From Eunapius fragilis (taxonomy: Eukaryota; Porifera; Demospongiae; Spongillida; Spongillidae), in contig OY811976.1 in NCBI GenBank assembly GCA_963681505.1, forward strand, positions 3,577,588 to 3,641,587: DNA of 64,000 nt, in the 5' to 3' direction. Position numbers and translations under genes: made by a program. Numbering within the stretch: the first letter of the stretch is position 1; every line of letters starts with the position of its first letter. Below the pieces are notes generated by a model. The model worked only from the letters and a program-made list of their open reading frames with translations. It searched no databases and had not been told where the DNA came from. This document shows, piece after piece, positions 2,780 to 63,542 of the stretch.

Positions 2780-3383
2780 ATGGTGTTCGTTGCGACATTA
2801 GCTGCAATGCTAGTGATCTCCATCAGTACTATGCAGTGTGCTCCTACTAAAAGACAAAACTCTGCGGAAAAAGATGAGAAATTGGAAAGTCTTATTAGAG
2901 GTGTTCTTTTCCTTGGTAGCTTGGCTCCAGGATCTACGGTGCGTGTATCCCAAAACAATATAATACTTTCAGATTTACATTTATAACAGGTGGTAAATAT
3001 CACCGATGAGATTTCCAAGGTACTTCTTGCAGTATGTCTTTTGAAGAACTTACCGTGGTCACGTGAAAACACCAGTGACACCCAGTTCCATGCATTGATG
3101 GCAGTCAAGGAAGCTGTTATCAACAACACGTGCGCATGGGTAAGAGCAAAGAATTATAGTGTGGATTCTTTATTCACTACTTGTAACATTTCAGCTATCA
3201 TCATCGCTACAATCGTTTTCATGCGACGATCTGTCTGCTTACTGCAGTACAGCGGAGATTGTGAATGTTCTACATATAACATTCAAAGATAGTAAACCCG
3301 CATCGTGCGATGAATGGATCACCAACAATCTCAGTAGTTACAATGACGAAATTAGATCAGTTTTTCGCGATCAGTGTGCATGA
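2780..3383 (+). CDS. F1 small secreted six-cysteine protein, copy 1
   Basis: Unrecognised host gene. Three exons, 2780-2938, 2990-3139 and 3195-3383, joined by phase-0 introns of 51 and 55 bases with GT...AG ends; spliced product 165 residues. Residues 1-20 are a hydrophobic signal peptide (MVFVATLAAMLVISISTMQC), followed by APTKRQ with a dibasic KR that could be a processing site. Mature cysteines are at about 69, 101, 113, 120, 141 and 164, and sequons include NIT, NTS and NLS. Exon 3 carries SCDDLSAYC, ASCDEWI and a C-terminal CA. Predicted secreted. Start chosen at the ATG after the TATA box because it opens the signal peptide. No domain family is recognised; a disulfide-bonded helical fold is possible but unproven. 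Confidence 0.8.
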
Positions 3384-3504
3384 CGTACTACGTCAAACCC
3401 GCCCAAATTGTACCTTACACTGAATATATACAATTATAATTAATATAACATCAATTTTTATGGGGTCGATCGCGAGGCAGCGTAGCGGGACGTAACCCCT
3501 TTTT

Positions 3505-3625
3505 TATATTATCTACGAGAAAGTTGGCAGCATATAGGTTTGGAAGGAAATAGTGGTGTAAAATGTAAGGATACAAGGGTCTCATAAGAAGAAGAAATGT
3601 AATAGTCTTACATTTCGCACAAGAT
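3505..3625. repeat. MITE single arm downstream of F1 gene 1
   Basis: Contains GAGAAAGTTGGCAGCATATA followed by a GGAAGGAAATAGTGGTGTAA-type stretch and ends near TTACATTTCGCAC. It matches one arm of the palindromic MITEs at 18601, 19708, 34113 and 35359. An equivalent arm follows most F1 genes. Confidence 0.6.
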
Positions 3626-4831
3626 AACTTTGAATTTTTTAATGGTGTTGCGTTATTCATCATTCTCACACAATTGAATCTTGCAATTTAATCAGCCACA
3701 CAAATGACCAATTTGAAACTAAGCAATTTGTTTTAAATACTAGCTTATATGAACACCCATATTCATATTCTGTGGGCGATAATGACATGAACTGCAACAA
3801 TGTTTAGTTTCGGCAGACCCCTCCCCTGATATGAAGAGCCAATCAGCAACTGCCCAGGTAGACTTTTGGTCTGTATAAAGTAAATAAATAAAAAATCGTT
3901 GCTAATAATTTTCTGGAATCACAGATGAATAGCATAGTGTATGGCCAGGGTTACAAGAATTTTTGTATTTTGTCCGATGGGTTGTACATATAATCCGGAT
4001 ATATGCTGAAGCTGTTGGTGTTCATGAACAACGTTTCTAGCTTGAGTTCCTCATAGCGGAAGGAAGGAGAATGATGGCGAATACTGTTGGACCGGGTACG
4101 AAACGTAGGCACGAGTATCTTTGTTCTCTTAAAGCGCGCATTGTTACGACACAGAACCAACGTAAAACTGCTCTTATTTGTGTTATCGTACGATAACGAC
4201 AAAGAGGGATAGCTGTTGTCACACACTCGGCACTATGTGCCAGGCATAGCAACTGTTTATTCCGTAAGGTTTCCCAAGGATGGCGGTATACACGTAGAGC
4301 TCCGATCAAACACTGTACAAGAGTGGCTGTCCGGATGTGACGTCAAACTAATCAAGGATGATTAAATTCGTAGTACCTTACGCGCAACTCGTCCATTTAA
4401 TTGGTCAGTCGATAACATCACCACGATCAATTGATCTCTAATGCTCGAACATTTACTCATTTATTTGGCAAGTTCTTCACATGCATACTTGGTGGAAATG
4501 TTTTAATCCAAGCTGGTATATCCTTATTCATAAATGTGTCATCCATTGGTGTTAGAGGAGAAGTATAACAACTATAACAGAATTGCTGTATTATTTTGTT
4601 TAAAATTTGTATTGCCATACTTTGGTTACTCTTTGGAACGTTTGTTGAGGCAGATATAATTGTAGCAACATAAGCGCTAAATATTAATGCCCTCCTTTGA
4701 TGTTCTCAGCCATGCCTGTAATACATTATAACATTGGATTTATTGTCCTCGCCTGTTGAAATTTATTAAGCAAACTATTCGCAAACTTGCAGTGCAAATG
4801 TCAGCAAGGGAATAACATCATATACAAATCA
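3626..4831. other. Intergenic tract shared by blocks A, B and C
   Basis: No gene supported. This tract between F1 gene 1 and the F2 pseudogene recurs at 24350-25250, and in part at 40260-41040, 60650-61400 and inverted at 14307-15030. Short open frames in it are not conserved in frame. Confidence 0.5.
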
Positions 4832-5510
4832 CTAAGCACAACTCAGATCCAATGGAGAACCAGCGCCGAGAAGCGGATTAAAAGATAAGATGTCAACAAA
4901 CACATAATTGATCAATCTGCATGTAACATTTTTCGCATTAAAGTATGGAGGTGTAGTGATAAAAGAGAAAACCAAGGGCTGCCACAACTGCGCTATGTGG
5001 AAAGGAATACGGATCGTAGCAATTTCATTCAAGGCGCACATTAATTCAATCACTTGCTCGCAACTATAAATGGAATGAATGTACTGGAGGGGGAAAACGA
5101 CAAATCATATACTAATGCACGCTTTCCAATACAGTTACAATTATTATTCGCAACTCACAGGCTGTTGCTCCACATATGAGCACGTCATATTCCGAACGCA
5201 ATTCAAGTTCACAGACGGGGTGCAATCATTACTTCTTGCTTGCCGCAGGACGTTTACAGGATGCGATAAACTTATCATTGTTATCTTGTATTTCGAACTG
5301 TACATGTGGACCAAAATGTTTATTCAAAATGAACACTTCATTGACTGGCCATTTCCATCACGTTCTATAAAGTGCATAACTCAAGCCGTCCAAAACCTGA
5401 AAATTATTCATGAGTGAAGTCAATCTATCCTCTAAAGTGGCGTAATTCACCACTGCCAGTGAAAGAATGCAGGCTGCCTGCAGTTGGACATGGAAGTTCA
5501 TCACAAACAT
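4832..5510 (-). pseudogene. F2 secreted cysteine protein, broken copy a
   Basis: Minus-strand copy of the gene that is intact at 47703-48392. Exon 1 starts at 5510 (MFVMNFHVQLQAACILSLAV), exon 2 begins at 5297 and exon 3 is 5083-4832, ending in LSCA. Compared with the intact copy, about 10 bases covering the first splice donor are missing, and exon 2 has an extra base after the TCCTGT codons that shifts the frame, so a full protein is unlikely. Exon 3 is open for 83 residues and keeps SCEQVIELMC, VTC and the terminal SCA. Confidence 0.7.
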
Positions 5511-8671: not shown

Positions 8672-11206
8672 CTAAGAGAAGAGCTTGCTCCTTTGCATTT
8701 GTGACAAAGACCAGAAGTTCTGGATAAACTTTCTGTAATAGGAGGCAAATCCAAGAAACTGGCGCAACGTTTCGTGATTGTTGGGCACTGGCCAATTTTT
8801 AACACAACTCGTTTTCAGAGGATCAATCTCAATGCCTTTCTCAGACACCACGTACCCCAGATATTGAACACTTTTGCGAAACAGTTGGCACTTACTAGGT
8901 TTTAATTTCAAGCCAGCTTCGTTTAACCTTCTGAGCACGTCTGCCAGGCGAGTAAAGTGTTCCTCTACTGTCTGGCTAAAGACGATTATATCGTCCAGGT
9001 AAACCAAGCAGGTACTCCAACTTAGACCAGCTAATACCAAGCCCATCAACCTTTGAAAGGTGCTAGGTGCATTGGTCAACCCAAAGGGCATCACACGGAA
9101 CTGGTGGAGACCAAAAGGGGTAACGAACGTGGTCTTCTCTTTATCAGAAGGATCCATCTCCACCTGCCAGTATCCGCTGGCCAAGTCAATTGTCGAGAAC
9201 CATTTTGCTCCTGCAAGGGTATCTAATGCATCGTCAATTCTGGGTATGGGATGTACATCTTTTTTTGTTACATCATTGACACGACGATAATCGACGCAGA
9301 ACCTGAACGAACCGTCTTTCTTCTTCGCCAGAACTATGGGCGATGACCATGATCCATCAGCTGGTTCAATGATCCCTTGCTCTAACATCCCCTGGATCAT
9401 TTTTTGGACCATGTCTCGCTGATGGAAAGGCAGCCTGCGAGCCTGTTGATGAATAGGCAAAGCATCCCCAGTATTAATCTTATGACGTAATACCCGTGTC
9501 CGTCCCAGGTCCCCATCCCCAACAGAAATGACATCAGCAAACTCTCGTAACAGACTCTTGAATTTAGTGTTTTCTCCCACGGTTAGGCCCTGCACTTTAC
9601 TAGCCATGTCATCAATTGTCTTACGGATAGCTTCCTCTGAACGCACTGTTGGTTTCTTATCCAATGATGGTTCTACCAGCCTCACCGTGTCCGCTTCCTG
9701 CAAAAATGACAGCTTACCAATCTTTTCCTGGCTGTAAAGGGTCACTGGGACAGGTGTTGGATTTATCAACTGTATTGTCGTTTTCCCTCCGTAAGTTGGA
9801 GATACAGAGTGAGCAACCATAACACCTCCGTGGTCTTCAGCAAAGTCTGTTTTAGGTTCAAACAGACCAACATGACCCGGAAAGTCTTCATCTGACGCCA
9901 GGTCTACAGGAAGCTGGACTTGATGATAAGCAGGAATAACAACTGTTTCCTTAACAAGAACATGACAAGTACTAGCACAGTCTCCAGAAAACAATGGTAC
10001 AGGTGTCACATGCCCCGCTATTGTTAGCGTTCTACGACCCAAGTCAATAACACAATTGTGTCGCTCCAAATAGTCTGTTCCCAACAGACATTCTTGTGTC
10101 ATTTCTTTTACAACAAGAACACTATGCACACCAACATGCTCTCCCACCTTTAACAAGACATCACCTTGTCCACTCAGAACAAGACTTTCACCATTCACTG
10201 CCATCACTGGATACTTAGCTGGACTGAGCTGTTTCTGTCCCCTCACCGCAGCTTTCCAGACGTTCTCGTGAAGAAGGGTCACTGATGAACCTGTGTCAAC
10301 TAACATGTGGGTGGTGTAGCCTTCTACAGCACCTTTTAGGGTAAGCGTACACGCAACCGCCGAGGTATGCCTCGCTGACCTATCTCCGTTTCCGTTACCT
10401 GCTCGAAGCTGTGGACAATTTCGACGCACATGACCTGGTTTCTTGCAGTGCCAGCAATTCACCCTTCTCGAGTTCTTTGTCTGGTGTTCCTGTTTGAGCA
10501 GGCTGTCTAACCGCTGCGTCAATGATGTCACCTGCGCAGCTAATTCCTGGTAGCTCCCACTGTTTCCACTTGCCGTTGCAGCGTTAATGCCCCTTGTAGT
10601 ATCTTCTGAAGGAGTTCCGACCTGTTTTGCTGTCTGCAGCATGCGCTGGGCTGACTCTATCGACTCCAATTGACATGCAAGCGTGACAGCACCGTCAAAT
10701 GTGTTGGGCCTCTCCTGCATAAGTTTCAACTGGATGGACGAAGATATAACACCGTTAATAAACTGGTTACGAGCCATTTCGAGTCTTTCGTTTGCTTTCC
10801 ATGAAGGGAACGCTTTATCAGCTAACATACGTAACCTTCCAGCAAACTCGGTCAGGGATTCTGTACTCTTTTGCTGCGCTGCATGCAGCCGTCGCTGCCA
10901 TTCCAATTCCACGCCAGCTGGTGAGAACTGTCTCTGAAGGCACGTCTTCACTGCTGTGTACTCAACTTTGTCAGCACAAAGCAAACCCATCTGACTTACG
11001 ATTCGAAACGCGTCGTCTTCCAGCAGTGAGACGAGTTCCTGGCCTTTCTTTTCATCGGGTATCTCCGCTTCCTTCATGTACAGCTCTACTCTCTGAATCC
11101 ACAGGGTGAAGTCTGTTCCAGACACAAATCTTGCCGGCGGCCTCACACTGAACCGAGCTGTCTTCTTCTCATCACCCATATCCCACTTCTGACACCAATG
11201 TGACAA
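8672..11206 (-). CDS. Gag-protease-RT frame of element E
   Basis: One frame of about 844 codons on the minus strand; the likely start is the MGDEKK methionine just inside the primer-binding site. It contains a gag region, a CCHC knuckle (CWHCKKPGHVRRNC, about residue 250), a retropepsin motif (MLVDTGSSVTLLH, about residue 300) and a reverse transcriptase with VYLDDIIVF (about residue 735). The frame ends shortly beyond the element edge in element D sequence. It belongs to a retroelement fossil and is not a host gene. Confidence 0.8.
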   Translation of the reverse strand: MSHWCQKWDMGDEKKTARFSVRPPARFVSGTDFTLWIQRVELYMKEAEIPDEKKGQELVSLLEDDAFRIVSQMGLLCADKVEYTAVKTCLQRQFSPAGVELEWQRRLHAAQQKSTESLTEFAGRLRMLADKAFPSWKANERLEMARNQFINGVISSSIQLKLMQERPNTFDGAVTLACQLESIESAQRMLQTAKQVGTPSEDTTRGINAATASGNSGSYQELAAQVTSLTQRLDSLLKQEHQTKNSRRVNCWHCKKPGHVRRNCPQLRAGNGNGDRSARHTSAVACTLTLKGAVEGYTTHMLVDTGSSVTLLHENVWKAAVRGQKQLSPAKYPVMAVNGESLVLSGQGDVLLKVGEHVGVHSVLVVKEMTQECLLGTDYLERHNCVIDLGRRTLTIAGHVTPVPLFSGDCASTCHVLVKETVVIPAYHQVQLPVDLASDEDFPGHVGLFEPKTDFAEDHGGVMVAHSVSPTYGGKTTIQLINPTPVPVTLYSQEKIGKLSFLQEADTVRLVEPSLDKKPTVRSEEAIRKTIDDMASKVQGLTVGENTKFKSLLREFADVISVGDGDLGRTRVLRHKINTGDALPIHQQARRLPFHQRDMVQKMIQGMLEQGIIEPADGSWSSPIVLAKKKDGSFRFCVDYRRVNDVTKKDVHPIPRIDDALDTLAGAKWFSTIDLASGYWQVEMDPSDKEKTTFVTPFGLHQFRVMPFGLTNAPSTFQRLMGLVLAGLSWSTCLVYLDDIIVFSQTVEEHFTRLADVLRRLNEAGLKLKPSKCQLFRKSVQYLGYVVSEKGIEIDPLKTSCVKNWPVPNNHETLRQFLGFASYYRKFIQNFWSLSQMQRSKLFS

Positions 11207-17242: not shown

Positions 17243-17719
17243 ATGGTGTTCGTCGCCAAATCTGCTGAAGTGCTAGTAATCTCCATCAGTACTACACAGG
17301 GTGCTCCTACCAAAAGCCCCGCCGACAAAGATGAAAGTTTGGACAGGATTATGAGAAGCGTTCTTTTCCTCAGTCGCTTAGCTCAAGGATCTAATGTAGT
17401 GCTGCCGCTTTTTGCCGATATCATCGAAATTAACATAACCCAACATGAATACAAAACATGGATACAATATAAATATATAAAAGCTGCAGATATGACATCG
17501 TGCTGGTGCCAAACTTAAGCATGCATGATATTCCTAATGTGCTGAATGTTCAATCATACCTTTCCATCAATATATTATCCATTGTAGATATTGATACAAT
17601 GTTCAGTTACAAATTCTCTCTTTCTATTGTTACAGAAGTCAAATGTTCTCCATTACAACCCGGCAGTCGAACGTGATACCCTCCAAAAGGATGTTCAAAC
17701 TCCTTTGAGGAGTGCCTGA
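17243..17719 (+). CDS. F3 secreted peptide gene, copy A (F1 signal exon, different 3' exon)
   Basis: A TATA box at 17191-17199 and an ATG at 17243 open a signal peptide close to that of F1 (MVFVAKSAEVLVISIS), then GAPTKSPADKDESLDRIMRSV, matching F1 exon 1 through about codon 51. A weak donor follows at 17396. The F1-type second exon is not found. A candidate last exon, 17636-17719, follows a pyrimidine-rich TTACAG acceptor, starts KSNVLHYNPAVERDTLQKDV and ends at TGA; the exact equivalent in block B is also open. The alternative is read-through of exon 1 to a stop at 17518. Splicing is inferred. The product would be a short secreted peptide of about 80 residues without the F1 cysteines. Confidence 0.45.
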
Positions 17720-19964: not shown

Positions 19965-20030
19965 TTTTTAGTTACTTGTACGCACAGAATAATTACCACC
20001 ATTGTTATATGAATTGTATTATCTTTTTTT

Positions 20031-20328
20031 CAAAGATGGTGTTATCAACAACTCGTGCGCATAAGTAAGAGCAAAGAATTACAATGTGGATCATTTATTC
20101 CACTACTTTTAACATTTTAGCTATCATCATCGCTACAATCATTTTCTTGTCTGATTACTGCAGTACAGTGGAGATTGTGAATGTTCTACACTCCACGTTC
20201 AAAGGAAGCAACCCGCACCGTATCACCAACAATAAAAATCTGTGTACTACAAGAACAAAATTAGATCATTATTTAGTTGTACATAACGTACTATTATTCC
20301 TACATGTCCAAATTGCAATAGCTATGTA
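20031..20328 (+). pseudogene. F1 3' fragment, copy A
   Basis: Keeps only the end of F1 exon 2 (GTTATCAACAACTCGTGCGC), the short intron and most of exon 3 (starting 20121). Exon 1 and most of exon 2 are replaced by MITE sequence. Exon 3 lacks a few bases near the first two exon-3 cysteines, which breaks the frame, and the 3' end diverges. Equivalent fragments are near 26.4, 35.7 and 53.0 kb. Confidence 0.7.
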
Positions 20329-20637: not shown

Positions 20638-22613
20638 TGTGTTAAAAACCACAGTGACACTCATACACATGTGCACAATGAATAGAACCAAGTAAAAGAG
20701 ACTGGTTCCGCTATTGACTCATATGCAAATAGACATTCTGTACATACATCAATGCACTTAAATAGGGATACAAGGGAAGGGTAAAGGTCACATGCACTAC
20801 TATATGCATTAAAAGCCAGACAGACTAGTCAGTTACTGCATAAAAGAGTACCATTAAGTCAAGCTTGTTACATCACTCCCTCCTATAGCAGACATGTCCA
20901 CATTAGTCAGTACATAATCCAGGTTCCAAGTGTTTCTGGTGGTCTCCTATCATGAATTGATTGATACAATCCTTGCTGTTGTATAGGTTCCTCTGTAACA
21001 TCCTGTAAACCTTCATTCTCAGGCGCATTTTGTACTCGTTTTTCAGTCTGGTCATATTCCATGATCACTTGGATATACTGAAACATTGTTTGGCAATACA
21101 TTGTTATCCTGCTGCACAACTGTAATGGCCTCACCTCCAACAGACCATTTTGAATGAACATGTTGTCATACATGTCTTCTACTTCATCATTGTTTTTTTA
21201 GTGTCAGACATGGTCTGCTGTTGGTCCTTGTTCCTCTTGCATGTCCAGATATGGCTTTAAACGATCAAAGTGTACCACCCGCTGCTTATGTGGAGGGAGA
21301 TTCCATTTAATCTGATACAGTCCTTTATCATACACCTTGTAATCGTGTATGGTCACATCCAATATGCATTGAGCTGATTGGAAAGCCCTTGGGGTACTGC
21401 TGGGCATTATAACCAGACCATTTCTCCCTCCTTAAAAGGTTTACCTTCCACCGAATGGTCGTACAGCTGCTTGTGTCGATGTTGCTCTGTACCCAAATGT
21501 TGCCTAACGTGGTCACAGGCTTCAGTCAGGAGTTGTTCTAACATCTTTGCAAACTCCAAAGTGCTAGCTGTGGACATGCCTGGGGGTTTTCCAAACATTA
21601 CGTCAATGTGTAATTGCACTTCTCGTCCAAACATAAGAGAGAATGGTGTAACCTTGTGGTCTCATGGAGAAAGGTACGATAAGCCATCATGAGGCAAGGT
21701 AAATTGTGGTTCCAATCATGTTCATCCTCATTACTGACCATTTTCAGCATTGAAAGCAAGGTGCGATTGAATCTTTCGATCATGCCATTGGACCGGGGAT
21801 GATAGGGAGTAGTCCTGCTCTTCACAACCCCTAGTAACCTGCAAATTTCTTTTACAAAGGTAGGCTCAAAATTTCGGCCATGGTATGTGTGAAGATATGC
21901 AGGAGCCCCATATATAACAACAAATTCCTTCACAAATAGTCACTGCCGCACCTTGATTGGGTTTGCTGTTCTGTGTACCAACCTCCATGATAGAATGCAG
22001 GTGCTTCATGGGAGACTTTTGGGCACCACACAGTACAAGCCCAGCACCATTCTTCAATATCAAGCCATTGTCCCACCCTTTAAAACCTCTGGCATGTTTT
22101 GTCTAGCACCTTTGTCACTCCAAGGTATCCACCAGTTGGGGCATCATGCAACTCAGAAAGCAAAATGGAAGGTACCAGTTCTACCTTGTATAAGACCAAT
22201 TGCAAGCAGCGATTCTGACCATTCCCAGATGCATCCTTCCGTGACCGGTAAAAAACGCTGGGACCAGAGGCTCTCTAAAGTGATGCTAGCTGTATGTGGG
22301 CATGTTTTAGGGAAATCATGTTGCATCCATTTCACCATCTGCACATTGTGAGGATCATCACACTTAAACCTAATGACATTCTGTTTAGTCCAATGCAATG
22401 CCCGACCACCTGCATCATTATCCACCTGGCTACACACCACATGCTCAGTACCTTAGATATTCTGCGACTCGACAACTCCTAAGTCATCATCACTTGCATC
22501 ACAGTCCACACTAAATTCTTCTTTAAAATTTGGGTAAACCAGTATTGGGGCAGAAGAACGCTTGGTCTTAAGAGCTTCAAATGCTCTTCCACACTGCTCA
22601 GTCCAGAGCTCAA
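20638..22613 (-). mobile_element. Ty3/gypsy remnant B (RNase H, integrase, 3' LTR)
   Basis: Block B copy of the gypsy remnant at 1-1868, same order of parts and same lineage. Terminal repeat 20638-20875 (TG...CA, 238 bases); integrase core with TTPYHPRSNGMIERFNRT around 21790. Broken in several places. Confidence 0.8.
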
Positions 22614-23525: not shown

Positions 23526-24129
23526 ATGGTGTTCGTTGCGACATTTGCTGTAATGCTAGTGATCTCCATCAGTACTATGCAGTGTGCTCCTACTAAAAGA
23601 CAAAACTCTGCGGACAAAGATGAGAATTTGGAAAGTCTTATTAGAGGTGTTCTTTTCCTTGGCAGCTTAGCTCCAGGATCTACGGTGCGTGTATCCCAAA
23701 ACTATACAATACTTTCAGATTTGCATTTATAACAGGTGGTAAATATCACCGATGAGGCTTCCAAGGTACTTCTTGCAGTATGTCTTTTGAAGAACTTACC
23801 GTGGTCACGTGAAAACACCAGTGACACCCAGTTCCATGCATTGATGGCAGTCAAGGAAGCTGTTATCAACAACACGTGTGCATGGGTAAGAGCAAAGAAT
23901 TATAGTATGGATTCTTTATTCACTACTTGTAACATTTCAGCTATCATCATCGCTACAATCATTTTCATGCGACGATCTGTCTGCTTACTGCAGTACAGCG
24001 GAGATTGTGAATGTTCTACATACAACATTCAAAGGTTACAGACCCGCATCGTGCGATGAATGGATCACCAACAATCTCAGTAGTTACAATGACGAAATTA
24101 GATCAGTTTTTCGCGATCAGTGTGCATGA
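23526..24129 (+). CDS. F1 small secreted six-cysteine protein, copy 3
   Basis: Exons 23526-23684, 23736-23885 and 23941-24129; phase-0 introns of 51 and 55 bases; 165 residues. Signal peptide MVFVATFAVMLVISISTMQC and all six mature cysteines are present. It is the block B counterpart of the gene at 2780 and shares its SDTQFHALMAVKEAVINNT stretch, which differs from the SESQFYALMAIKDAVINNS of the other copies. TATA at 23478-23486. Function unknown; predicted secreted. Confidence 0.8.
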
Positions 24130-26419: not shown

Positions 26420-26714
26420 TGGACATGTAGGAATAATAGTACGTTATGCATAACGAAATAATGATCAAATTTTGTTCTTGTAGTACACAGGTTTTATATT
26501 GTTGGTGATACATTGATTACACGGTGCGGGTTTGCTTCCATTGAACGTGGTGTGTAGAACATTCACAATCTCCGCTGTACTGCAGTAAGCAGAGACGAAA
26601 ATGATTGTAGCGATGATGATAGCTGAAATGTTAAAAGTAGTGGAATAAATAATCCACATTGTAATTCTTTGCTCTTACCCATGCGCACGAGTTGTTAATA
26701 ACAGCATCCTTGAA
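26420..26714 (-). pseudogene. F1 3' fragment, inverted copy in block B
   Basis: End of exon 2 and most of exon 3 (starting 26622, reading leftwards), with the same structure as the fragment at 20031. No exon 1. It is absent from the matching place in block A. Confidence 0.65.
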
Positions 26715-27408
26715 AACGGGATAAGACAATTCATATAACAATTGTGGTAATTATTGTGCGTACAAGTAACTAAAAAGTTCTCTATGAGAAAGTTGGTGAG
26801 ATATCGAGAGTTACGTTACTCTCATATAGGGTTTGACCCCGATTATGAATGTCATTAAAAAAAACGCGACCCGCTTCTAACAAGACTCTCGACGAGCGAA
26901 TGGCTTACCTTGTTGTTGTCGTCGTACAAGAAGGCAACAACAAGCAGTTACGTGTTTGTTTGATGTCACAAAACCACGTGGTTGTAGAGAACAAAACTAT
27001 TTTCCAAACTCATACCCAGTCCCACGTATTTCTCGTTCTTATTCTTCTTCTTCTTCTTCTTCTTGTTCTTGTTCTTCTTGACCAAGCATAACTGTATCTT
27101 ATTTGTTAATGCAACGTACATACACATGCGTATGCATGTACACATAGCATGTATGCCTGTAGGTCATGTCGTCATCATGCAGCATATCAGTCGGCAATTT
27201 ATATGGTGGACTTTCAGGATCCGATTGGGCGGAAGAGTTAGAAAGATTATTCCCTCATGTGCAGTAACTGCCATAAGACGAGCGTTTCCTGAACTGGACA
27301 ATAATTATGTAGGCTATAAAGAATATGTTGCATTGTAATACAGTGCCGGTTTGTACTAACAAAATCGTGAACAGTGTTCCTTTATTAATTTGTCTTTTTT
27401 GGGACGCA
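26715..27408. other. Diverged foldback arm and simple repeat
   Basis: Contains a MITE end (TTCTCTATGAGAAAGTTGGT at about 26779-26798), a diverged arm of the large foldback (about 26820-27030) and a TTC/TTG-rich run at 27037-27078. No gene seen. Confidence 0.45.
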
Positions 27409-36225: not shown

Positions 36226-38512
36226 TGGGTTAAAAACCACAGTGACACTCATACACATGTGCACAATGAATCGAACCAAATGAAAGAGACTGGTTCTGCT
36301 ATTGACTCTCATATACAAATAGACATTCTGTAATGCATCAATGCACTTAAATAGGAATACAAGGGAAGTGTAAAGGTGACATGCACTACATTAAAAGCCA
36401 GACAGTCTAGTCAGTTACTGCATAAAAGAGTACCATTAAGTCTAGCTTGTTACATCACTCCCTCTAATAGCAGACATGTCCACATTAGTCAGTACATAAT
36501 CCAGGTTCCAAGTCTTTCTGGTGGTCTTCTTTCATGAGTCGATCGACACAATCCTTGCTGTTGTATAGGTTCCTCTATAACATCCTGTAACCATCATTCT
36601 CAGGCACATTTTGTTCTAGTTTTTCAGTCTGGTCATTTTCCATGATCACTTGGTATACTGAAACATTGTTTGGCAATACATTTTTATCCTGCTGCACAAC
36701 TGTAATGGCCTCACCTCCAACAGACCATTCTGAATGAACATGTTGTCATACATGTCTTCTACTTCATCATTGTTTTTTTAGTGTCAGACATGGTCTGCTG
36801 TAGGTCCTTGTTCCTCTTGCCTGTTCATATATGGCTTTAAATGATCAATGTGTACCACCCGCTGCTTATGTGGAGGGAGGTTCCATTTAATCTGATACAC
36901 TCCATTATCATACACCTTAGTAATCATGTACAGTCCATTCCAATATGCATTGAGCTTTTTGGAAAGCTCCTGGGGTACTGCTGGGCAATATAACCAGACC
37001 ATTTCTCCCTCCTTAAACGGTTTATCTTTCACCATATGGTCGTACAACTGCTTGTGTCTATGTTGCTCTGTACCCAAATGTTGCTTAATGTGGTCATAGG
37101 CTTCAGTCAGGTGTTGTTCTAACATCTTTGCATCCTCCAAAGTGCTAGCTGTGGACATGCCTGGGGGTTTGCCAAACATTACATCAACGTGTAATTGCTC
37201 TTCTCGTCCAATCATAAGAGAGAATGGTGTAACCTTGTGATCTCATGGAGAAAGGTACGCTAACCCTTCATGAGGCAAGGTAAATTGAGGTCCCAATAAT
37301 GTTCATCCTCATTACTGACCATTTTCAGCATTGAAAGCAAGGTACGATTGAATATTTCAATCATGCCATTGGACTGGGGATGATAGGGAGTAGTCATGCT
37401 CCTCACAATCCCTAGTAACCTGAAAATTTCTTTTACAAAGCTAGAATCAAAATTTCTGCCATGGTATGTGTGAAGACATGCAGTAGCCCCTTCAAATTCC
37501 TTTACAAATAGTCATTACCACACGTTGCAGGGGTTTGCTGATCTGTGTACCAACCTCCATGGAAGAATGCCGGTGTTTCATGGGAGACTTTTGGGCACCA
37601 CACACAGTACAAGCCCTGCACCATTCTTCAAAATCAAGCCATTGTCCCACCCTTTAAAACCTCTGGCATGTTTTGTCTAGCACCTTTGTCACTCCAAGGT
37701 ATCCACCAGTTGGGGCATCATGCAACTCAGAAAGCAAAATAGAAGGTACCAGTACTACCTTGGGTAAGACCAATTGCAAGCAGCTATTCTGACCATTCTC
37801 TGAAGCATCCTTCCATGACCAGTAAAGAACTCTGGGACCAGAGGCTCTCTAAAGTGATGCTAGCTGTATGTGGGCATGTTTTAAGGAAATCATGTTGCAT
37901 CCATTTCACCATCTGCACAATGTCAGGATCATCACACTGAAACCTAATGACATTCTGTTTTGTCCACTGCAATGCCTGACCACCTGCATCATTATCCACC
38001 TGGCTAGAAGCAATGACATTAACTTCGACAAGCTGGTCACCATGCTGGTGACAGGGGTGGCGGGACAAAGGTGTCAGCATTGCCATGCTTCTTGCCAGAC
38101 CTATGCTCTACTGTAAAGTTGTATTCTGCCAAGGATTCCAGCCATCGGGCCACCTGGCCTTTAGGCTCTTTAAACGAACACAGCCACTGTAAAGCACCAT
38201 GGTTGGTCCATGCAATAAAATGCTAGCCATACAGATTAATGTCTGAACTGGCCCAAACCCCACACTAGTGCTAACATTTCCTTCCTAGGGGCACAATACT
38301 TTAGTTCAGCCTTGGTGAGAGTTTGACTTGCATAGCACATCGCATGCTCAGTACCTTAGATATTCTGCGACAACTACTAAGTCATCATCACTTGCATCAC
38401 AGTCCATAATAAATTCTTCTTTAAAATTTGGGTAAACTATCAATGGGGCAGAAGTAAGCTTGGTCTTAAGAGCTTCAAATGGTCTTCCACACTGCTGGGT
38501 CCAGAGCTTGAA
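36226..38512 (-). mobile_element. Ty3/gypsy remnant C (RNase H, integrase, 3' LTR)
   Basis: Third copy of the gypsy remnant. Terminal repeat 36226-36457 (TG...CA, 232 bases). The integrase C-terminal part around 36784-37215 (for example KEGEMVWLYCPAVPQELSKK) is the best preserved of the three copies. More of the RNase H region (about 38000-38340) is kept. Broken in several places. Confidence 0.8.
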
Positions 38513-39423: not shown

Positions 39424-40026
39424 ATGGTGTTCGTCGCGACATTTGCTGTAATGCTAGTAATCTCCATCAGTACTGTACAGGGTGCTCCTACTAAAAGACA
39501 AAACTCTGCGGACAAAGATGAGAAATTGGAAAGTCTTATTAGAGGTGTTCTTTTCCTTGGTAGCTTAGCTCCAGGATCTACGGTGCGTGTATCCCAAAAC
39601 AATATAATACTTTCAGATTGCATTTATAACAGGTGGTAAATATAACCGATGAGGCTTCCAAGGTACTTCTTGCAGTATGTCTTTTGAAGAACTTACCGTG
39701 GTCACGTGAAAACACCAGTGAGAGCCAGTTCTATGCATTGATGGCAATCAAGGATGCTGTTATCAACAACTCGTGCGCATGGGTAAGAGCAAAGAATTAT
39801 AATGTGGATTCTTTATTCACTACTTATAATATTTCAGCTATCATCATCGCTACAATCGTTTTCATGCGACGATCTGTCTGCTTACTGCAGTACAGCGGAG
39901 ATTGTGAATGTTCTACATACTACGTTCAAAGGTATCAGACCCGCATCGTGCGATGAATGGATCTCCAACAATCTCAGTAGTTACAATGACGAAATTAGAT
40001 CAGTTTTTCGCGATCGATGTGCATGA
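39424..40026 (+). CDS. F1 small secreted six-cysteine protein, copy 5
   Basis: Exons 39424-39582, 39633-39782 and 39838-40026; introns 50 and 55 bases, phase 0; 165 residues. Signal peptide MVFVATFAVMLVISISTVQG (residue 20 is Gly here, Cys in most other copies, so that cysteine is not needed in the mature protein). Six mature cysteines kept. TATAAAG at 39377-39383. Exon 3 carries GIRPASCDEWISNN. Function unknown; predicted secreted. Confidence 0.8.
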
Positions 40027-43020: not shown

Positions 43021-44733
43021 AACTGCATGCAGGCATTGCTGAAAGCGCAGACTGCAGTGAAGAAAATCAATGAAGCAAGAGAGGAGGAAGGGGTTCACCT
43101 CCTGCAGTAGAAGATGCTTTCTTTAACGGTGAAGCTAAGGCAGCAATGGAAGATGTGTTCCATCTGAATGAGTTACACACTGATACGGTTGAAGATCGGG
43201 TTGCTAAGCTCAATGCAGATCAATTACGAATTATCAATAACATGAATGACCATCTTTGCCACAAAAAAATGCATGAGAATAGCAAATGCTTCTGTACTAC
43301 ACATAAGCCTATGTCCATGTTCATTAGTGGTGTGGGTGGTACAGGAAAATCCTTCCTAATTCATACGATCCGAGGAAAGGTTAATGAACTATGGAAGGAT
43401 AACAAAGATTCCATCAGGTGTGCACTCGCAGCTCCTTCGGGATTGGCTGCATTTAACATAGATGGTGTGACTGTAACTACTAATAGAGCATGATTCTAAG
43501 ACATCGACTTACTGGTCACTTCCTAAAGAATCACTTAAAGTAATGCGGAACGGTTTCATGCATGTAAAGTTAATCATCATTGATGAGGTTAGCATGTTGT
43601 CAAGCCTGACCCTAGCTTACATTCATTTGAGGCTTGAAGAGTTGTTTGGAGGTGATCAATGGTTTGGGTCCATGAACATTCTGTTCTTTGGTGATTAGTT
43701 ACTACATCTCCCTCCTGTTAATGGTTCTATTATGTTCCAAAACATTTCTAATAAAATCATTGCCGCAAGGCTAGGCTGTGTGACAGCAGTGAACATTTGG
43801 AGGGAATCTGTAGTGTATGATGAACTGACCATAAATGAACGACAAAAACGGGACCCAGAATTTGGTCAGTTATTAAATGGACAGGGTGAATAGTATATCT
43901 GATAAAACTGTTGCACTTTTAAACACTGCGGTCATAAAATGCACAGCTGTAGAAAAATTCCAAGGTCTATTAGGCCAGGGTTTGTCCTCTGTGTGTCTGT
44001 TTGCTACGAGACGATGTTGTGACCAACTTAACACAGAGATACTTTCAAATGCAGGCTCACAAATAGTACACATGCCCTGCATGGATGAGTTTGATGAAAC
44101 AGCAGGGAAAGTGAAGTGGACTAAAAGGGCATCATCTGCACTAGAAAAGTTTAATGCTGGTCTAGAGGCAGAGCTAAAACTGGTTGTAGGTGTTAGAGTC
44201 ATGCTAAGACGGAATCTAGATACCAGTCAAGGGTTGGTCAATGGAGCCATAGATTGAATACCGTAAGGTCTTCGATCTATGATGGAGCACTGGGTACTGT
44301 TTCTGCTATTAGCAAGGACTGCATTCAGGTTACATTTGATCACACTCCTAAATTGCAGTTTAAAATTGAACGCGTGCGTAGTATGTTTCAAATATTACGC
44401 CATTTATATGTGTACAGTAAACAGTTTCCTTTAATACTGGCATTTTCAGTTACAATCCATGGTTTGTCATTAGACTGTGCAATTGTGGACCTGTCTAGCG
44501 ATGTACTTGCAACAGGAATGGCCTATGTTGCCATGTCACGTGTGAGAACACTGGCTGGTCTGTATCTCTTAGCATTTAATCCTATATCGATAAAAGTCAG
44601 CAGGGAGTGTACTGAAGAAGTAAACAGGTTACGTAAACTATATAAAAGTGACATTCCATATATAGAGCGTACTTGTGATCGACCTCTGGCCTTCTGTCTT
44701 CCATTTCTGTACTGTCGTAAGGAAAATAGATAA
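43021..44733 (+). pseudogene. PIF1-type helicase remnant, probably from a Helitron
   Basis: Motifs of the PIF1/RecD helicase family appear in order: Walker A in ISGVGGTGKSFLIHTIRG (about 43325), Walker B in VKLIIIDEVSMLSS (about 43567), and the C-terminal block VTIHGLSLDCAIVDLS then GMAYVAMSRVRTLAGLYLL (about 44450-44575). In animals such clustered, broken PIF1 genes mostly come from the helicase of rolling-circle Helitron transposons. No Rep nuclease domain is seen in the window, so the Helitron origin is inferred. The frame is broken about four times, so no functional helicase is expected. Inverted pieces of its 3' end lie at 45495-45585 and 46925-46990. Confidence 0.7.
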
Positions 44734-52641: not shown

Positions 52642-52989
52642 TGCATGCTCAATGCATGCAGAGCATCTAGTAACTAAATAATCCCTCAATACATCGGTTT
52701 AGATATAAAAATTAATAAAACTTGACAAATGCACATTGTATAGCTGCCCATGCTTATAAGCTCATTCATGAAACCGAGCACATACCTGCAGTAGAAGAAA
52801 CTATTTGCACGTGTACCCAACATGTATACTGCACGATATCAGTACTTCCTTAATGCCCTTGAAATATATTCTCTAGGTACGCTATGCTACGCGTGCATAC
52901 ACCTCACCGAAATAGGTGATTGAACAATCGATAAATTGATTGGCAGTTATATACACCGCTCCTCAAACTTAGTTACTTAGCTTTTACAA

Positions 52990-53398
52990 TTTGGATGAGT
53001 ATGAATAACAGTACGTTATGCACAACGAAATAATCATCTAATTTTGTTCTTGTAGTGCACAGATTTATATTGTTGGTGATACATTGATTACACGGTGCGG
53101 GTTTGCTTCCTTTGAACGTGGTGTGTAGAACATTCACAATCTCCGCTGTACCGCAGTAAGCAGACACGAAATGATTGTAGCGATGATGATAGCTGAAATG
53201 TTAAAAGTAATGGAATAAAGAATCCACATTGTAAATCTTTGCTCTTACCCATGCGCACGAGTTGTTGATAACAGCGTCCTTGAGTGCCATCAAAGCATCG
53301 CAACGGCTCTCATTGGTGTTTTCACTTGACCACGGTAAGTTCTTCAAAAGACACACTGCAATAAGTAGTTTGGAGCCTAATCGGTGATATTTCCCCCC
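52990..53398 (-). pseudogene. F1 3' fragment near 53 kb
   Basis: Exon 2 is nearly whole (53398-53249, with VCLLKNLPWSSENTNESRCD and VINNSCAW) and exon 3 starts at 53192. Exon 1 and promoter are absent and exon 3 is frame-disturbed as in the other fragments. The right boundary, just past exon 2, joins unrelated sequence. Confidence 0.65.
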
Positions 53399-53728
53399 CT
53401 TATAAACGCTAATCTGAAAGTATTGTGAGCACGCAATGTAGACAGCGCTGCCGCGATGTATCACGATATTTTGCGATATATGCGATGTATTTTGGTCCTA
53501 TCGCGATACAAACATGCATATTATATACAAAGATAGACGGAAGAATGGATGGAAATATACGAAAAGAAATTCAGCAGGTGTAACTATAGTGTTCGGCCAT
53601 ACACGCTGTCGTACTGCTTACACATGCCGTAAATATTCCGCCCCGATCGAAATAAAAATGGCTCGTACTTAAACGTGTAAGAGCGAACGCTTTTTTTTAC
53701 GTCAAGTACATCAGTGGGTTATTTTAAT

Positions 53729-55848: not shown

Positions 55849-58800
55849 AGGGTAATTTTCCATTTAAGAACCGATGTCCTAATAAGAACCGGAAGGGGGG
55901 GTAGGGGGTCTGTGCGTACCGCGTAAGGGTGACGAGTTTTTTCAAAAGCGAAACAAACCAAAACCGTGTAGCCTTGTGATTTTCCTTCTTGCTCTTGTTC
56001 AGCTTCTAGTACAAGCGGGGGGAGGGGCGGGAAAGTATTTGGACGAAAACAACAACCGAAACCAGCCTTGTTGGCTCGGTTCCTCCGCTCTTGTGTTTAT
56101 CCTCCACTCGGAGCTAAACACGGCCATGACTTGTTTCTTTTTGACGCTCAGGTGTAATATTAAAATAGACTTTAGCTTTATTGCTATAGTATACTACTCT
56201 TACTAGTAATTTGTAAACCCGCAATTATGGCGGCTCTGTGGTACTACTCCAATCTTGAAGATGCTAAAACTGCCTACCCGTTCAGTGAGTTTCAGCGACG
56301 CTTGTGTCAGGACAAGGGTGTTAAGGTTGGTGTTAAGAAGGAGCATTATGACACTTTTATCGAGGCCCTTCAGGGTCGTCGCTTTCAACAAGTTATTTCT
56401 CGGTCGAAAGTGAAACATCTCTTAGAGTTCCCATCCCTGATCAAAACTCATGACATCCATGATAAAGCACAGGATATAGCTACGATTATCTTACAGGAGG
56501 AAGCAGCAACTAGGGCTATGATTGAGAAAGATCAAGAACAGCCACAGTCGTCCAGGGGTGGGAGACCTCCTAAGAATGCTAAGGGTGGAGGGAGGAAGCC
56601 CCTGGCCCAGCTTATTGGCCAAGCCTCTAATGCCTTACATGTTCGGCAATCTACTGTCAGACCTACTGGTAAAGAGAACAAGACCAAGAGAGCCATAAAG
56701 AAGAAAAAGAAGGGGGTGAAGGTCAGGAGCCAAAAGCTGCAGCGTACTAACTATTCACAAGGTGAAGCCCATGTTCGATTGACCGAAGCTGTCAAATGTG
56801 CTGAAGAATTGAAGACACTGAGGGTGAATGGTGAGGCTGCACCTCAGGAGTGGGGAGGAGTATGGCCATCTCAGAAATGCATTGCCATGAAGTATAAGGT
56901 GGCTAGGTCTGTGCTTACCAAGACACTACTGGGGAAGAGGGATCTGGATACTCATCAGGGCCGCCAATGTGTTCTAGGAAAGGATGTTGAGCATAAAATT
57001 GTGCAATATGCAACCGACATGGATGACCACGGCTTTGGCCTCAATATGAAGAGCATGATGTGGTTAACCCAGCGGGTGGCTGCTGCCTATGGAATGCAGG
57101 GCTTCAAGGCCACATACAGATGGCTGGCTGGCCTTTTCCGCCGTTATGCAGAGCTTGCCAAAAGGAGGTCTCAAGCCTTTCAGCGGCTAAGGGCCGGAGG
57201 GATGAATGCTACCCAGATCAGTGAGTATTTTACCATACTTCCGAAGGTAATTGATGAATGCTTGACTGCAGATGACCTAATGGAGATGGATCCAAACCTC
57301 ATTGCCAACCTGGATGAGACCAACATCACACAGGACATTCATGGTGGTTTGATCATATCTAAAAGAGGGAAACGAGATGTCAAAAAAGTGAGGAATAAGG
57401 GATCTGGAAAGAGTCGCTGTACATCAGTCAATGTGATCAGTGCTGGTGATTACATCTATGACAGCTTCCTCCTATTAGAGGGGCAGGAGGTGGATAAGAA
57501 ACAGATTCTAAGACATCCTGATGGGAGGGAAGATCTGAAATGCCTGAAGGAAGGAACAGGGTGGGCCATGACTCCATGTGGTTACATGAATGATGAGACA
57601 TGGGATGAGAAGGTGACACCATGGATCATAAACCAGGTAGGTCTAACTGTCCATCCATGATTTATTCATATCTATCATGTCTTTGTTGTAGGTGAACAAG
57701 ATGAGGGAGGCTACAGGTAATCAGAACAAGCATGTCATCCTTGTTCTCGATGGATTTGGGAGCCACTGCTATAGCTGGAAGTCCCTTCATAAGATGGCTG
57801 ATGCCAAGATCAAGGTGATAAAAATGCCTTCCCATACATCCAGTGCCCTCCAGCCTTTGGATGTGGCAGTTTTCAAGGTACTCAAAGGGGAATGGCGGGC
57901 CTTTGTAGACCTGTACCAGTTGGCCATGCCAGGAGAAGCCATGAGCAAATATGATCTGTGTAAGTGGTTCCAGGTCATATGGGAGAAGATTATGGAGGGA
58001 AATGAGTTGGCCAGACAGGGTATGAAGAAGAGTGGTTTATGCCCTTTTAATTCTAAGTGGGTGGTGGAGAACAAGGACAAGCTTACCATTTCTGAGTCCT
58101 TCACTTGTACAGAAGACGATCTGGCAGTTCTTGCTGTGGCTGAAGAGTATGACATCCAGTCAGAAACGGTAGCAAGGGATATCATCACTGTGAGGGGCAT
58201 GTTATCATCGCCTCGCCTGCAAGAATCCATTAACACCATCATTGACTCAGCTGAGATTGAGCAGACTGTCACAGCTGATGATGTGATGGACTTGCTGCAT
58301 AGGGTGGAGAGGTACGAAGTATCATTGGACTTACCAGAGGATGCAATCCTTGCCAAGCCATGGTGGCAAGAGAAGATTAAAGAATGGCTTGAGAGGGCTG
58401 GCTGTGGTGATGATGCAGTTGATGGTGCATGTGACGATGGCCATTCACAAGGCCCAAGCAGGAAGAAGGCTCGTGGACCTAAGATCCATAAGGCCACTGG
58501 AGAGAGATTAAGTGCCCCATGGGATTGTACAGCACCCTCAAGATTGGCCATGTTGGCAGAGCAATTAGATAAAGAAATGGAGGCAGAACAGGAGAAGAAG
58601 GCCAAACAACTTGAAAAAGAAGAAAAGAAGAGAAAGAGAGAGGAAGAGGCTGCCAAAAAGGCACAGGACAAGGCAAAGATGTTAGAAGAGCAGCACATGG
58701 TTGTCACTCTTCTTGAGTCCCTGGGCTTTTTACCAGCCAGTTTCAACTTAGCTACCAGCATTATTACAAAGAGTATCTTGAGTCAGTTCATTAAAGCCCA

Positions 58801-59437
58801 AAAGTTAAATAAGCAAGAGTGGAAGTCATATGTCACTAGGAAGCAATTAGACTCAAAGCTCGGGATTAGTTCGAAGGGAGTGACCTCCAGTATGCTTGTT
58901 ACCTTCCTAAAGGATATCCTAGAGGAGCAGCCAGGGCGCCAGTGGCTTGCCAAGACTATTACTACCCCTATCCCTTTGGAGACTGTGGAGGCTCCTATAT
59001 AGATGTCACTCAAAACATTGTCCCCCTCTCTTACTCACATCACACCAATATTTTGAACTTGCACCTTTTACAACCTGTGTGCTTGTATGTGTGCATTCAC
59101 ATCCGCATCAGCAGTTACATGTAGGTATTGATCATTGATTGAGCTAGTGGTTGAAGCAAACATTTAATCCAGCTGTAATAAGTCTAACTTAACAGTAAGC
59201 CCATCAGTGATGCTATCTAGACCATTGGTTCTTATTAGGTCACACACTCCCAACCCCCCCTATACCGTAAGGGGTCCAAAACAGGCCAATGATACCAGAT
59301 GGAGACAAACAAATAGTTTATCCATGTTCTTTGATGAATTTGGAAATGGGTTTTAAAGAAATAATAACAAAATTCGGTGTGTAAAGAGAGCCGTGATTTC
59401 TGAAAGTAAACGTGGTTCTTAAACGGATTTTTACCCT
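55849..59437 (+). mobile_element. Whole-looking pogo-like DNA transposon
   Basis: 3589 bases. Terminal inverted repeats of 24 bases match at 20 positions: AGGGTAATTTTCCATTTAAG (55849 onward) and the inverse ending at 59437. A second inner pair, CCTAATAAGAACC (from 55878) and GGTTCTTATTAGG (59227-59239), follows. The target TA is duplicated (55847-55848 and 59438-59439). The undisturbed target is seen in F1 upstream regions, for example TGTACTATAGGACG near 62780. It encodes one two-exon transposase with an uninterrupted frame and could be young. Confidence 0.85.
56227..59002 (+). CDS. Pogo/Tigger-like DDE_1 transposase
   Basis: Two exons, 56227-57636 and 57692-59002, joined across a 55-base GT...AG phase-0 intron; 906 residues. 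Residues 1-150 are an unrecognised N-terminal extension with an AT-hook-like GGRPPKN near 111-117. A lysine-rich stretch (about 154-171) could be a nuclear signal. A CENP-B/Tc5-type helix-turn-helix region lies at about 240-305. The DDE_1 catalytic core has Asp363 (NLDETN), Asp490 (LVLDGFGSH) and Asp527 (LQPLDVAVF), giving DD36D spacing. A charged coiled coil (about 755-805) precedes the C-terminus. It would bind the element's ends and cut and paste it into TA sites. All three catalytic aspartates are present and no stop interrupts the frame. Confidence 0.85.
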
Positions 59438-59782: not shown

Positions 59783-60387
59783 ATGGTGTTCGTCGCGACA
59801 TTTGCTGTAATGCTAGTAATCTCCATCAGTACTATGCAGTGTGCTCCTACTAAAAGACAAAACTCTGCGGAAAATGATGAGAAATTGGAAAGTCTTATTA
59901 GAGGTGTTCTTTTCCTTGGTAGCTTAGCTCCAAGATCTACGGTGCGTGTAAACTAAAAACATATAACACTTTCAGATTTGCATTTATAACAGGTGGTAAA
60001 TATCACCGATGAGGCTTCCAAGGTACTTCTTGCGGTATGTCTTTTGAAGAACTTACCGTGGTCACGTGAAAACACCAGTGAGAGCCAGTTCTATGCATTG
60101 ATGGCAATCAAGGATGCTGTTATCAACAACTCGTGCGCATGGGTAAGAGCAAAGAATTACAAAGTGGATTCTTTATTACACTACTTGTAACATTTCAGCT
60201 ATCATCATCGCTACAATCGTTTTCATGCGACGATCTGTCTGCTTACTTCAGTACAGCGGAGATTGTGAATGTTCTACATACAACATTCAAAGGTAGCAAA
60301 CCCGCATCGTGCGATGAATGGATCACCAACAATCTCAGTAGTTACAATGAAGAAATTAGATCAGTTTTTCGCGAACGGTGTGCATGA
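59783..60387 (+). CDS. F1 secreted protein, copy 6, with one cysteine replaced
   Basis: Exons 59783-59941, 59993-60142 and 60199-60387; introns 51 and 56 bases; 165 residues; signal peptide MVFVATFAVMLVISISTMQC. The fourth mature cysteine (residue 120) is Phe here (SAYFSTAEIV against SAYCSTAEIV elsewhere), leaving five, which should leave its partner unpaired. SLAPRST replaces SLAPGST at the end of exon 1. TATAAAAAG at 59735-59743. An AATAAA lies near 60440. A 3.6-kb transposon sits 345 bases upstream. It could be drifting towards a pseudogene. Confidence 0.75.

Positions 60388-61722: not shown

Positions 61723-61754
<32 letters not shown>
61723..61754 (+). repeat. Poly-G run
   Basis: About 32 consecutive G. 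Confidence 0.9.
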
Positions 61755-61756
<2 letters not shown>

Positions 61757-62085
61757 AAGCGGCTATCAATGTGCTTTTACCCTGTCAAAAAAGTAGCCAC
61801 TCAGCTGTGTTGACCTCTAAATGAGGTTATATCCACCATTTACAGTCGCCTCAGCCTCACCCTCATGAGGCAGAATGCCAGGGCAATGTTGGCCAGATGT
61901 GTCCCACCAACCACATCTTGTGACTTTGAGTTGTTGTAGTGCTTTCATGTGCATATTATTATGATTATTATTGTATTCACTGCTTATACATTTATGAAGT
62001 ATATTTAATAATTATTATAATATTATTAGGCGGTATGGAGGGACCTAGCGCAACTTTTTTCAAGTTTCCAAATTATGTCGAATCC
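61755..62085. other. Unassigned stretch
   Basis: No gene seen. AT-rich with TATTATTA stretches around 61955-62030; the end resembles part of the MITE at 51675. Confidence 0.4.
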
Positions 62086-63050
62086 TAAATGACTACTCCC
62101 ATCCGCATATTGTGCCCAATCTAATGCTGTTTCTTACCTGCATGACTTAAGACACTGATACTGCTTACACTGTAGTAGGAATTCTCAAAGTATTACTACT
62201 AGTACTACTATCATCACAGCCCTCCCACATAAATGCCTATTAGGCAATGGTTGTAACTTAGCAACCAATTAATCTGAGTTTCATCACGTACCTTTAAAGA
62301 AGAATAATCCTTCCAAACATTTTTACAAAGGCATCAAGCAGTAAAAGGCACTGCATGCATGTCTATTCACATTTTCATGAGCACAGAATTTTACGTACAT
62401 GTCAAGGCTTGCCTTTAAGCTGCAGGCTCGCTTTGAGGGAGGCCAGCCCATTTTAAAACTGGCCAGCTGGGCCTCTTTGAAGAAACTGATGAACGTAGGA
62501 ACCTTAGCATGCTACCTTTGTGATAACTATCACGCTTTGAAGATGATAAGAACGTCTAAAAATCGTCCAGCTCGTGTATGGTCGGCATGCGAGTAAAGTC
62601 CGTATTGCCTGCACGTGTATATGGAGTGTCTTGAGAGGTGAAAGTCGTTGCTGCAGTTTTGATATGTGTACATGAATGCTTAGATAAAGATATGTTCCTT
62701 CAATGTCAAGGGAAGCACGAAAAACATAAGTGCATAAATAAAGAAAACACGAGGATTGGACTATGCATATCAGTCATGTTGTACTATAGGACGAAACTAG
62801 AATTTGTAGGACAAATATGCGAAATATAAGACGAAACTTAACACATGTATTTGTATTTTCACTCTGAACAAATAACATTATGTCCTAAAAATTCTATGCG
62901 CATTTAAGGTGATTCCGCGCATCACAAAATTGAAAATGAGCTTAGCCATACCGAAATCAATGACGATGCTTATTCAAACAAGCCATTAGCATATTGCGCG
63001 CTACCTGCATGTATATTCTGTTTCCTCCATCTGCCTGCGTGCCTTAAATT
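62086..63050. promoter_or_regulatory. Upstream region of F1 gene 7, undisturbed reference copy
   Basis: The most complete F1 upstream region without a gypsy or pogo insertion. It holds the GGCCAGCTGGGCC palindrome (about 62460-62472), the TGATAACTATCA motif (62520-62531), the uninterrupted TGTACTATAGGACG site near 62780 and the inverted pair 62799-62813 / 62881-62895. Confidence 0.55.
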
Positions 63051-63099
63051 GTATATAAAGTTGTGTATGGATGATTGCAAACCATCTCGGAAAACAGAA

Positions 63100-63542
63100 A
63101 TGGTGTTCGTCGCGACATTTGCTGTAGTGCTAGTAATCTCCATCAGTACTATACAGTGTGCTCCTACTAAAAGACAAAACTCTGCGGACAAAGATGAGAA
63201 ATTGGAAAGTCTTATTAGAGGTGTTCTTTTCCTTGGTAACTTAGCTCCAAGATCTACGGTGCGTGTATCCCAAAACAATATAATAGTTTCAGATTTGCAT
63301 TTATAACAGGTGGTAAATATCACCGATGAGGCTTCCAAGGTACTTCTTGCGGTATGTCTTTTGATGAACTTACCGTGGTCACGTGAAAACACCAGTGAGA
63401 GCCAGTTCTATGCATTGATGGCAATCAAGGATGCTGTTATCAACAACTCGTGCGCATGGGTAAGAGCAAAGAATTACAAAGTGGCATGGGTTATTACACT
63501 ACTTGTAACATTTCAGCTATCATCATCGCTACAATCGTTTTC
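63100..63542 (+). CDS. F1 small secreted six-cysteine protein, copy 7 (3' end in gap)
   Basis: Exons 63100-63258 and 63310-63459 are complete; exon 3 starts at 63517 and enters the N gap at 63543. Signal peptide MVFVATFAVVLVISISTIQC. Cysteines 69 and 101 are visible; the rest would be in the gap. Intron 2 is 57 bases and open in frame (VRAKNYKVAWVITLLVTFQ), as in copy 4. TATATAAAG at 63052-63060. Confidence 0.75.

Follow-up and report, generated by a model that had tools for sequence, protein, structure and literature searches.

What is the gene family that is repeated along a 64,000-nucleotide stretch of the freshwater sponge Eunapius fragilis, and what could so many copies be for? The stretch (GenBank assembly GCA_963681505.1, contig OY811976.1, positions 3,577,588 to 3,641,587 of the forward strand; hereafter the window) was initially annotated as carrying a clustered family of small secreted six-cysteine proteins, designated F1. 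In the present analysis, F1 appears to be an undescribed orphan family, and tandem clusters of this sort are ordinary in freshwater sponges. For its role we tentatively prefer, with somewhat less than even confidence, a secreted glycoprotein of the surface, canals or mesohyl, with an interface role and with copies that would serve dose.

The window contained six complete three-exon F1 genes and one further copy in which exon 3 is unreadable in the given sequence, so that the seven genes of the initial annotation became six and a partial seventh. As described there, copies lay in both orientations, five on the plus strand and two on the minus strand (starting at 15885 and 31504), and six fragments, one of them weak, were located between the copies. 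For the gene at 2780, the same splice junctions (2938/2990 and 3139/3195) and the same product of 165 residues were recovered. All six complete models had GT-AG introns of 50-51 and 55-62 bases, which agrees with the announced range of 50-62 bases; the phase 0 of these introns was imposed by the search, which presupposed three exons and phase 0, and is not an independent result. The copies and fragments of the window are as follows.

2780-3383, plus strand: F1 gene; exons 2780-2938, 2990-3139 and 3195-3383; 165 residues
15275-15885, minus strand: F1 gene; exons 15885-15727, 15675-15526 and 15463-15275; 165 residues
23526-24129, plus strand: F1 gene; exons 23526-23684, 23736-23885 and 23941-24129; 165 residues
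30896-31504, minus strand: F1 gene; exons 31504-31346, 31294-31145 and 31084-30896; 165 residues; mosaic upstream region
39424-40026, plus strand: F1 gene; exons 39424-39582, 39633-39782 and 39838-40026; 165 residues; mosaic of two classes
59783-60387, plus strand: F1 gene; exons 59783-59941, 59993-60142 and 60199-60387; 165 residues; fourth cysteine replaced by phenylalanine; mosaic
63100-63542, plus strand: F1 copy; exons 1 and 2 open, exon 3 unreadable in the given sequence
17243-17401, plus strand: exon-1-like fragment; 64% protein identity; Lys-Arg pair lost
20030-20293, plus strand: exon 2/3-like fragment with stops and frame breaks
26437-26713, minus strand: exon 2/3-like fragment
32794-32901, plus strand: weak exon-1-like piece (expectation value, E = 0.023)
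35687-35960, plus strand: exon 2/3-like fragment
52985-53424, minus strand: exon 2/3-like fragment

The extent of the family was determined in the window's own assembly (219 Mb, 24 contigs). With 40 of 480 first-look candidates scored, the DNA search yielded at least 48 F1 matches, and every one of these fell on contig 6. The protein search yielded 97 exon-level matches at E <= 1; those at E <= 0.05 fell on contigs 6 and 4 only, and one weaker match was located on contig 1 (E 0.36). Complete three-exon models were obtained at 24 of 35 candidate places, six of them inside the window. With the window included, F1 was located on contig 6 at about 1.74-1.83, 3.18-3.64 and 5.49 Mb, as well as on contig 4, and these additional clusters extend the initial annotation.

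The 35 places were hand-picked from the DNA and protein matches, with several short fragments omitted, and the stretches at 3307900 and 1734100 were covered in part only by the model search. The spliced-model search gave 27 models, of which four were removed by hand: 3474778 (acceptor lost), 3298204 (frame shift), 1818620 (exon 2 damaged) and 3640687 (exon 3 unreadable). Eight places gave no model; one of these, 3063900 on contig 4, yielded a model once the start window was widened, bringing the total to 24, and the other seven did not. As a control, 300 random window stretches away from F1 were scored with at most 3000 models per stretch; 263 yielded no model. The search was not permissive, since the best random score was 39 and the weakest accepted F1 gene scored 305. 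An unspliced reading across intron 2 was rejected, as this intron either contains a stop or would shift the frame by its length in 15 of the 23 listed genes; intron 2 was open in the other eight, where splicing rests on the paralogues.

Six subfamily representatives displayed 39-68% pairwise protein identity (15 pairs). When four subfamily pairs were compared part by part, exon identity ranged from 56 to 84%; intron identity reached 61-67% in the pair most alike and lay at 42-54% in the remaining three. Shuffling intron 1 of one pair 200 times gave a mean identity of 40% and a maximum of 47%. The exon plan was thus kept between subfamilies and the introns decayed toward chance level, which argues that the F1 copies are genes; the distant copies are the strongest evidence for this.

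Selection was evaluated as the ratio of the proportions of nonsynonymous and synonymous differences (pN/pS). Among the six subfamily representatives the ratio was 0.56 (95% interval 0.47-0.65), all 2000 resamples stayed below 1, and the corrected ratio of nonsynonymous to synonymous rates (dN/dS) between them ranged from 0.26 to 0.68. Values of 0.60 (95% interval 0.39-0.94) and 0.24 (0.10-0.52) were obtained for the main cluster (13 genes) and for the cluster at 1.8 Mb (four genes), respectively. Overall, selection on F1 was purifying or relaxed; the comparison across copies, proposed in the initial annotation, showed constraint overall, and diversifying selection was not demonstrated.

All 24 F1 proteins begin with a hydrophobic stretch followed by Ala-Pro and, one to three residues further on, by Lys-Arg. 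The Lys-Arg pair, which the initial annotation had not described, was invariant (24/24) and lay three to five residues after the expected leader cleavage point; the leader was judged from the hydrophobic start and the Lys-Arg pair as read in the sequence, not by a signal-peptide predictor. The part behind Lys-Arg comprised 134-155 residues (14.7-17.1 kDa) in the 24 genes, with a calculated isoelectric point (pI) of 4.55-5.13 in 22 of them and of 5.24 and 6.33 in two contig-4 genes. A cationic antimicrobial peptide was ruled out, as the pI was below 5.3 for 23 of the 24 mature parts.

The cysteines occupy positions 69, 101, 113, 120, 141 and 164 and are spread over 96 residues. Cysteines 69, 141 and 164 were found in all 24 proteins, Cys 120 in 23, and Cys 101 and Cys 113 in 22 each. 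The six ordered cysteines described before were present in five of the six complete window copies, with copy 59783 carrying phenylalanine at the fourth. Cys 101 and Cys 113 were both missing from the same two contig-4 genes (3063900 and 3257700), which pair in the tree with support 98/96, and this joint loss fits a possible Cys101-Cys113 disulphide. N-glycosylation sequons, reported earlier as several per protein, numbered three or four in each complete window copy and two to six per protein in the family; N56 was found in 21 of 24 proteins, N80 in all 24, N98 in 22 and N148 in nine. No internal repeats were seen in the F1 alignment. Judging from these motifs, the F1 product is probably secreted and glycosylated.

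The statement of the initial annotation that no known domain could be recognised held in the searches, a test named beforehand: neither Pfam nor PDB gave a convincing match. The 2780 protein had no Pfam match at E <= 10. For nine F1 members no Pfam family was above the cut-off, and two families were matched by one member each (best E 0.016 and 0.056). No relative was found in PDB by sequence or by profile, the one match (E 2.4) being to the activator RamA, which was rejected as a chance helix match. Prokaryote and viral contigs, in collections that hold no animal genomes, gave no F1 relative when searched with the protein and with the family alignment. A description of F1 was not found in the literature by topic words, a route unable to reveal an unnamed family.

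Two structure predictions were made with AlphaFold2 from inputs translated straight from the DNA, so that 37 of 177 residues in the first and 20 of 132 in the second were intron-encoded. With these residues included, the mean predicted local distance difference test (pLDDT) was 46.9 and 51.7, and the predicted template modelling score (pTM) was 0.36 and 0.34, respectively. Both models were of low confidence; the first was mostly helical, with three short strands in or around intron 1, and the second consisted of helices and no strands. A Foldseek search with the second, low-confidence model returned 47 matches at E <= 10 and none at 0.001, the best having E 2.3. The models suggest that the F1 fold is probably mostly helical.

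Clustering, a leader peptide and local turnover had been proposed from the outset, and mosaic copies and fragments were indeed observed. The plus- and minus-strand copies of the main cluster formed two classes, with 85 sites separating four plus copies from seven minus copies. At these 85 sites, copies 39424 and 59783 were patchworks of both classes, and copy 30896-31504 changed class within its upstream region. These mosaics apparently reflect gene conversion or recombination between opposite-strand copies. Segmental duplication accounts for the spread of the F1 copies: the plus copies 2780 and 23526 sit in blocks of some 4 kb with 95.5% identity to each other, and plus and minus copies have a core of roughly 2 kb in common.

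Among 28 other open frames of the window compared with Pfam, the majority matched weakly or not at all, and the clear matches were mainly to mobile-element genes. A long minus-strand frame (8672-11206) matched aspartyl protease, zinc knuckle and reverse transcriptase families, with PNMA and gag below the cut-off; it is probably a retroelement, for which a Ty3-like label may be suggested from these matches. On the plus strand, 57692-59002 matched the DDE_1 endonuclease (E 3.8e-12), and the 477-residue frame immediately before it had no Pfam match at E <= 0.01. Pieces of a Pif1 helicase were present in two open frames at 43074-44254 (plus strand) and are perhaps a Helitron remnant. Integrase-like remnants below the cut-off were found at 872-1210, 21601-21939 and 36784-37215 (minus strand), in three duplicated blocks and 1.6-2.2 kb upstream of plus F1 copies. 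F1 might also be carried by a mobile element; around the distant clusters, flanking sequence was compared only by eye, over some 120 bases.

Several further observations concern other genes. A frame at 26988-27335 (plus strand) matched the P2RX7 intracellular domain above the cut-off (E 5.3e-6), and in the contig-6 cluster region a plus-strand frame (stretch L040, 689-1465) matched a PHD finger and an Ulp1-type protease. Contig 9, a nuclear contig, carried stretches resembling cox1 near 9.625 and 9.675 Mb; they are interrupted by many stops, as would be expected if mitochondrial DNA had been copied into the nucleus. The cox1 of contig 24 contained nine TGA codons inside the match and read normally with table 4, with AGR as arginine.

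On the preferred reading, the leader would be cut off first, and a convertase would then remove the short propeptide by cutting at Lys-Arg; sponges (Amphimedon) are reported to have prohormone convertases, furin-like ones among them, in an excerpt of PMC6850559. The mature protein would fold into a globule, mostly helical and disulphide-bonded, in which Cys101 pairs with Cys113. It would be secreted in quantity from TATA promoters in one or a few cell types, and would coat or condition the surface, canal lining or mesohyl, or bind microbes or particles there. Secretion, Lys-Arg trimming, glycosylation and a disulphide fold are each suggested by motifs. The many copies would serve dose rather than provide diversified recognition variants; dose fits better than a recognition library because the main-cluster copies are alike, apparently homogenised and mostly constrained.

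A number of points weigh against this reading. F1 is known here from sequence alone, and the argument for dose draws on the similarity of copies and on diversifying selection not having been demonstrated; young copies homogenised by conversion would look alike under any function. In the main cluster, pN/pS of the mature part was 0.64; its interval (0.39-1.14) includes 1, and 6% of resamples gave 1 or more. Only exon 1 behind the leader showed a pN (0.030) slightly above pS (0.025) in this cluster. Relaxed constraint is therefore possible there and might apply to the youngest copies. The Cys101-Cys113 pairing rests on a loss that was probably a single event in a common ancestor, as both contig-4 genes pair in the tree, and one complete window copy lacks Cys 120 with no other cysteine lost. 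The support from TATA promoters is qualified as well: a strict TATAWAR motif lay wholly within 41-100 bases upstream of the ATG in 21 of 24 genes, compared with 3% of random 60-base stretches, but this motif was picked after the promoters had been inspected. Family size and turnover say little for an interface, because such clusters are common in Ephydatia muelleri according to an excerpt of PMC7385117. The outer-interface role put forward in the initial annotation is plausible but leans on that size and turnover, and an arms race was so far unsupported by the pN/pS values of the main cluster and of the 1.8 Mb cluster.

Diversified defence or self/non-self recognition, with each copy having its own ligand and conflict driving copy number and turnover, is a rather unlikely alternative that nonetheless accounts for the leader peptide, the clustering, the turnover, the fragments and the mosaics. 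An acidic glycoprotein with no obvious structural repeat would suit it, as would the slight excess of pN in exon 1 of the main cluster, and a response to algal symbionts is described for many genes of Ephydatia muelleri that are novel or uncharacterised (PMC7882143, in excerpt). It is opposed by the lack of an overall excess of amino-acid changes within or between clusters, by main-cluster copies that are nearly alike, and by the frequency of similar clusters among unrelated genes of a freshwater sponge (excerpt of PMC7385117). That near-identity and constraint, together with TATA promoters, would also fit an abundant structural or reproductive secretion, such as a gemmule coat, an egg or larval product, or a mesohyl or spicule-associated matrix; this is unlikely, as the alignment shows no internal repeats and the data contain no pointer to a stage or tissue.

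Quite unlikely as well is a ligand of the helical-cytokine type, in which a pro-piece would be removed at Lys-Arg and a disulphide-bonded helical bundle would act on a receptor. Its size, sequons, Lys-Arg pair and low-confidence helical prediction are all compatible with this, but the fold is unproven at the pLDDT and Foldseek values given above, and many near-redundant ligands would be odd. The most improbable explanation is that F1 is passenger sequence with no present function, consisting mostly of dead copies spread by segmental duplication rich in mobile elements. The window does hold many element remnants, the duplicated blocks carry integrase-like pieces below the cut-off, and 11 of the 35 places were broken, fragmentary or unreadable; against this stand 24 open spliced frames, the invariant Lys-Arg pair, three invariant cysteines and the failure of any of the 2000 pN/pS resamples among six subfamilies to reach 1.

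Should the genes be expressed, F1 would form a clearly delimited orphan family whose gene models are clear and whose product has an apparent site of processing and probably a disulphide. It would belong to a lineage, most likely the freshwater sponges, in which very many genes are still unannotated. It would gain in importance only if the cells expressing it served immunity, recognition or signalling. That F1 comprises lineage-restricted helical cytokine-like ligands or recognition glycoproteins of freshwater sponges, with a very short propeptide ending in Lys-Arg, is a long shot; if true, it would represent a new class of secreted proteins, for signalling or immunity, in an animal that has no neurons.

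Compared with known systems, several candidates were rejected. Saposin-B-like proteins have closely spaced paired cysteines at both ends of about 80 residues; F1 has no close cysteine pair and no Pfam match to them. Insect odorant- or pheromone-binding proteins have three residues between the second and third of six cysteines, compared with eleven between Cys101 and Cys113 of F1, which again had no Pfam match. An SRCR protein was discounted as well, since F1 had no Pfam match to the SRCR domain. Four-helix cytokines, which form an up-up-down-down four-helix bundle, are a possible parallel rather than a rejected one; they share with F1 the small size, leader, sequons and cysteines, but the helicity of F1 is a low-confidence prediction, and no sequence or fold match was obtained.

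The sponge knottins (stryphnines) are, like F1, cysteine-rich and of sponge origin; in the excerpt of PMC13418204 they are mini-proteins with a tight cysteine knot, whereas the cysteines of F1 are spread over 96 residues. A sponge knottin was rejected on the wide cysteine spacing and the 134-155 residues of the mature part.

The closest parallel is provided by genome organisation. In Ephydatia muelleri, tandem clusters whose members share one exon structure occur commonly, and these clusters resemble F1 in having the same exon-intron structure, several locations, and variable introns and intergenic DNA (excerpt of PMC7385117). The examples given in that excerpt are integrins, E3 ligases, mGABA receptors, actin and a leukotriene receptor, and a secreted six-cysteine family is not among them. 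F1, with its clustered copies, shared exon-intron structure and variable introns, has the features by which tandem duplicates of freshwater sponges are recognised. In Spongilla lacustris, the MorF survey counted 3875 unannotated proteins with pLDDT > 70, 316 of them without a Foldseek hit (excerpt of PMC10176882), and F1 orthologues could be among these unannotated proteins.

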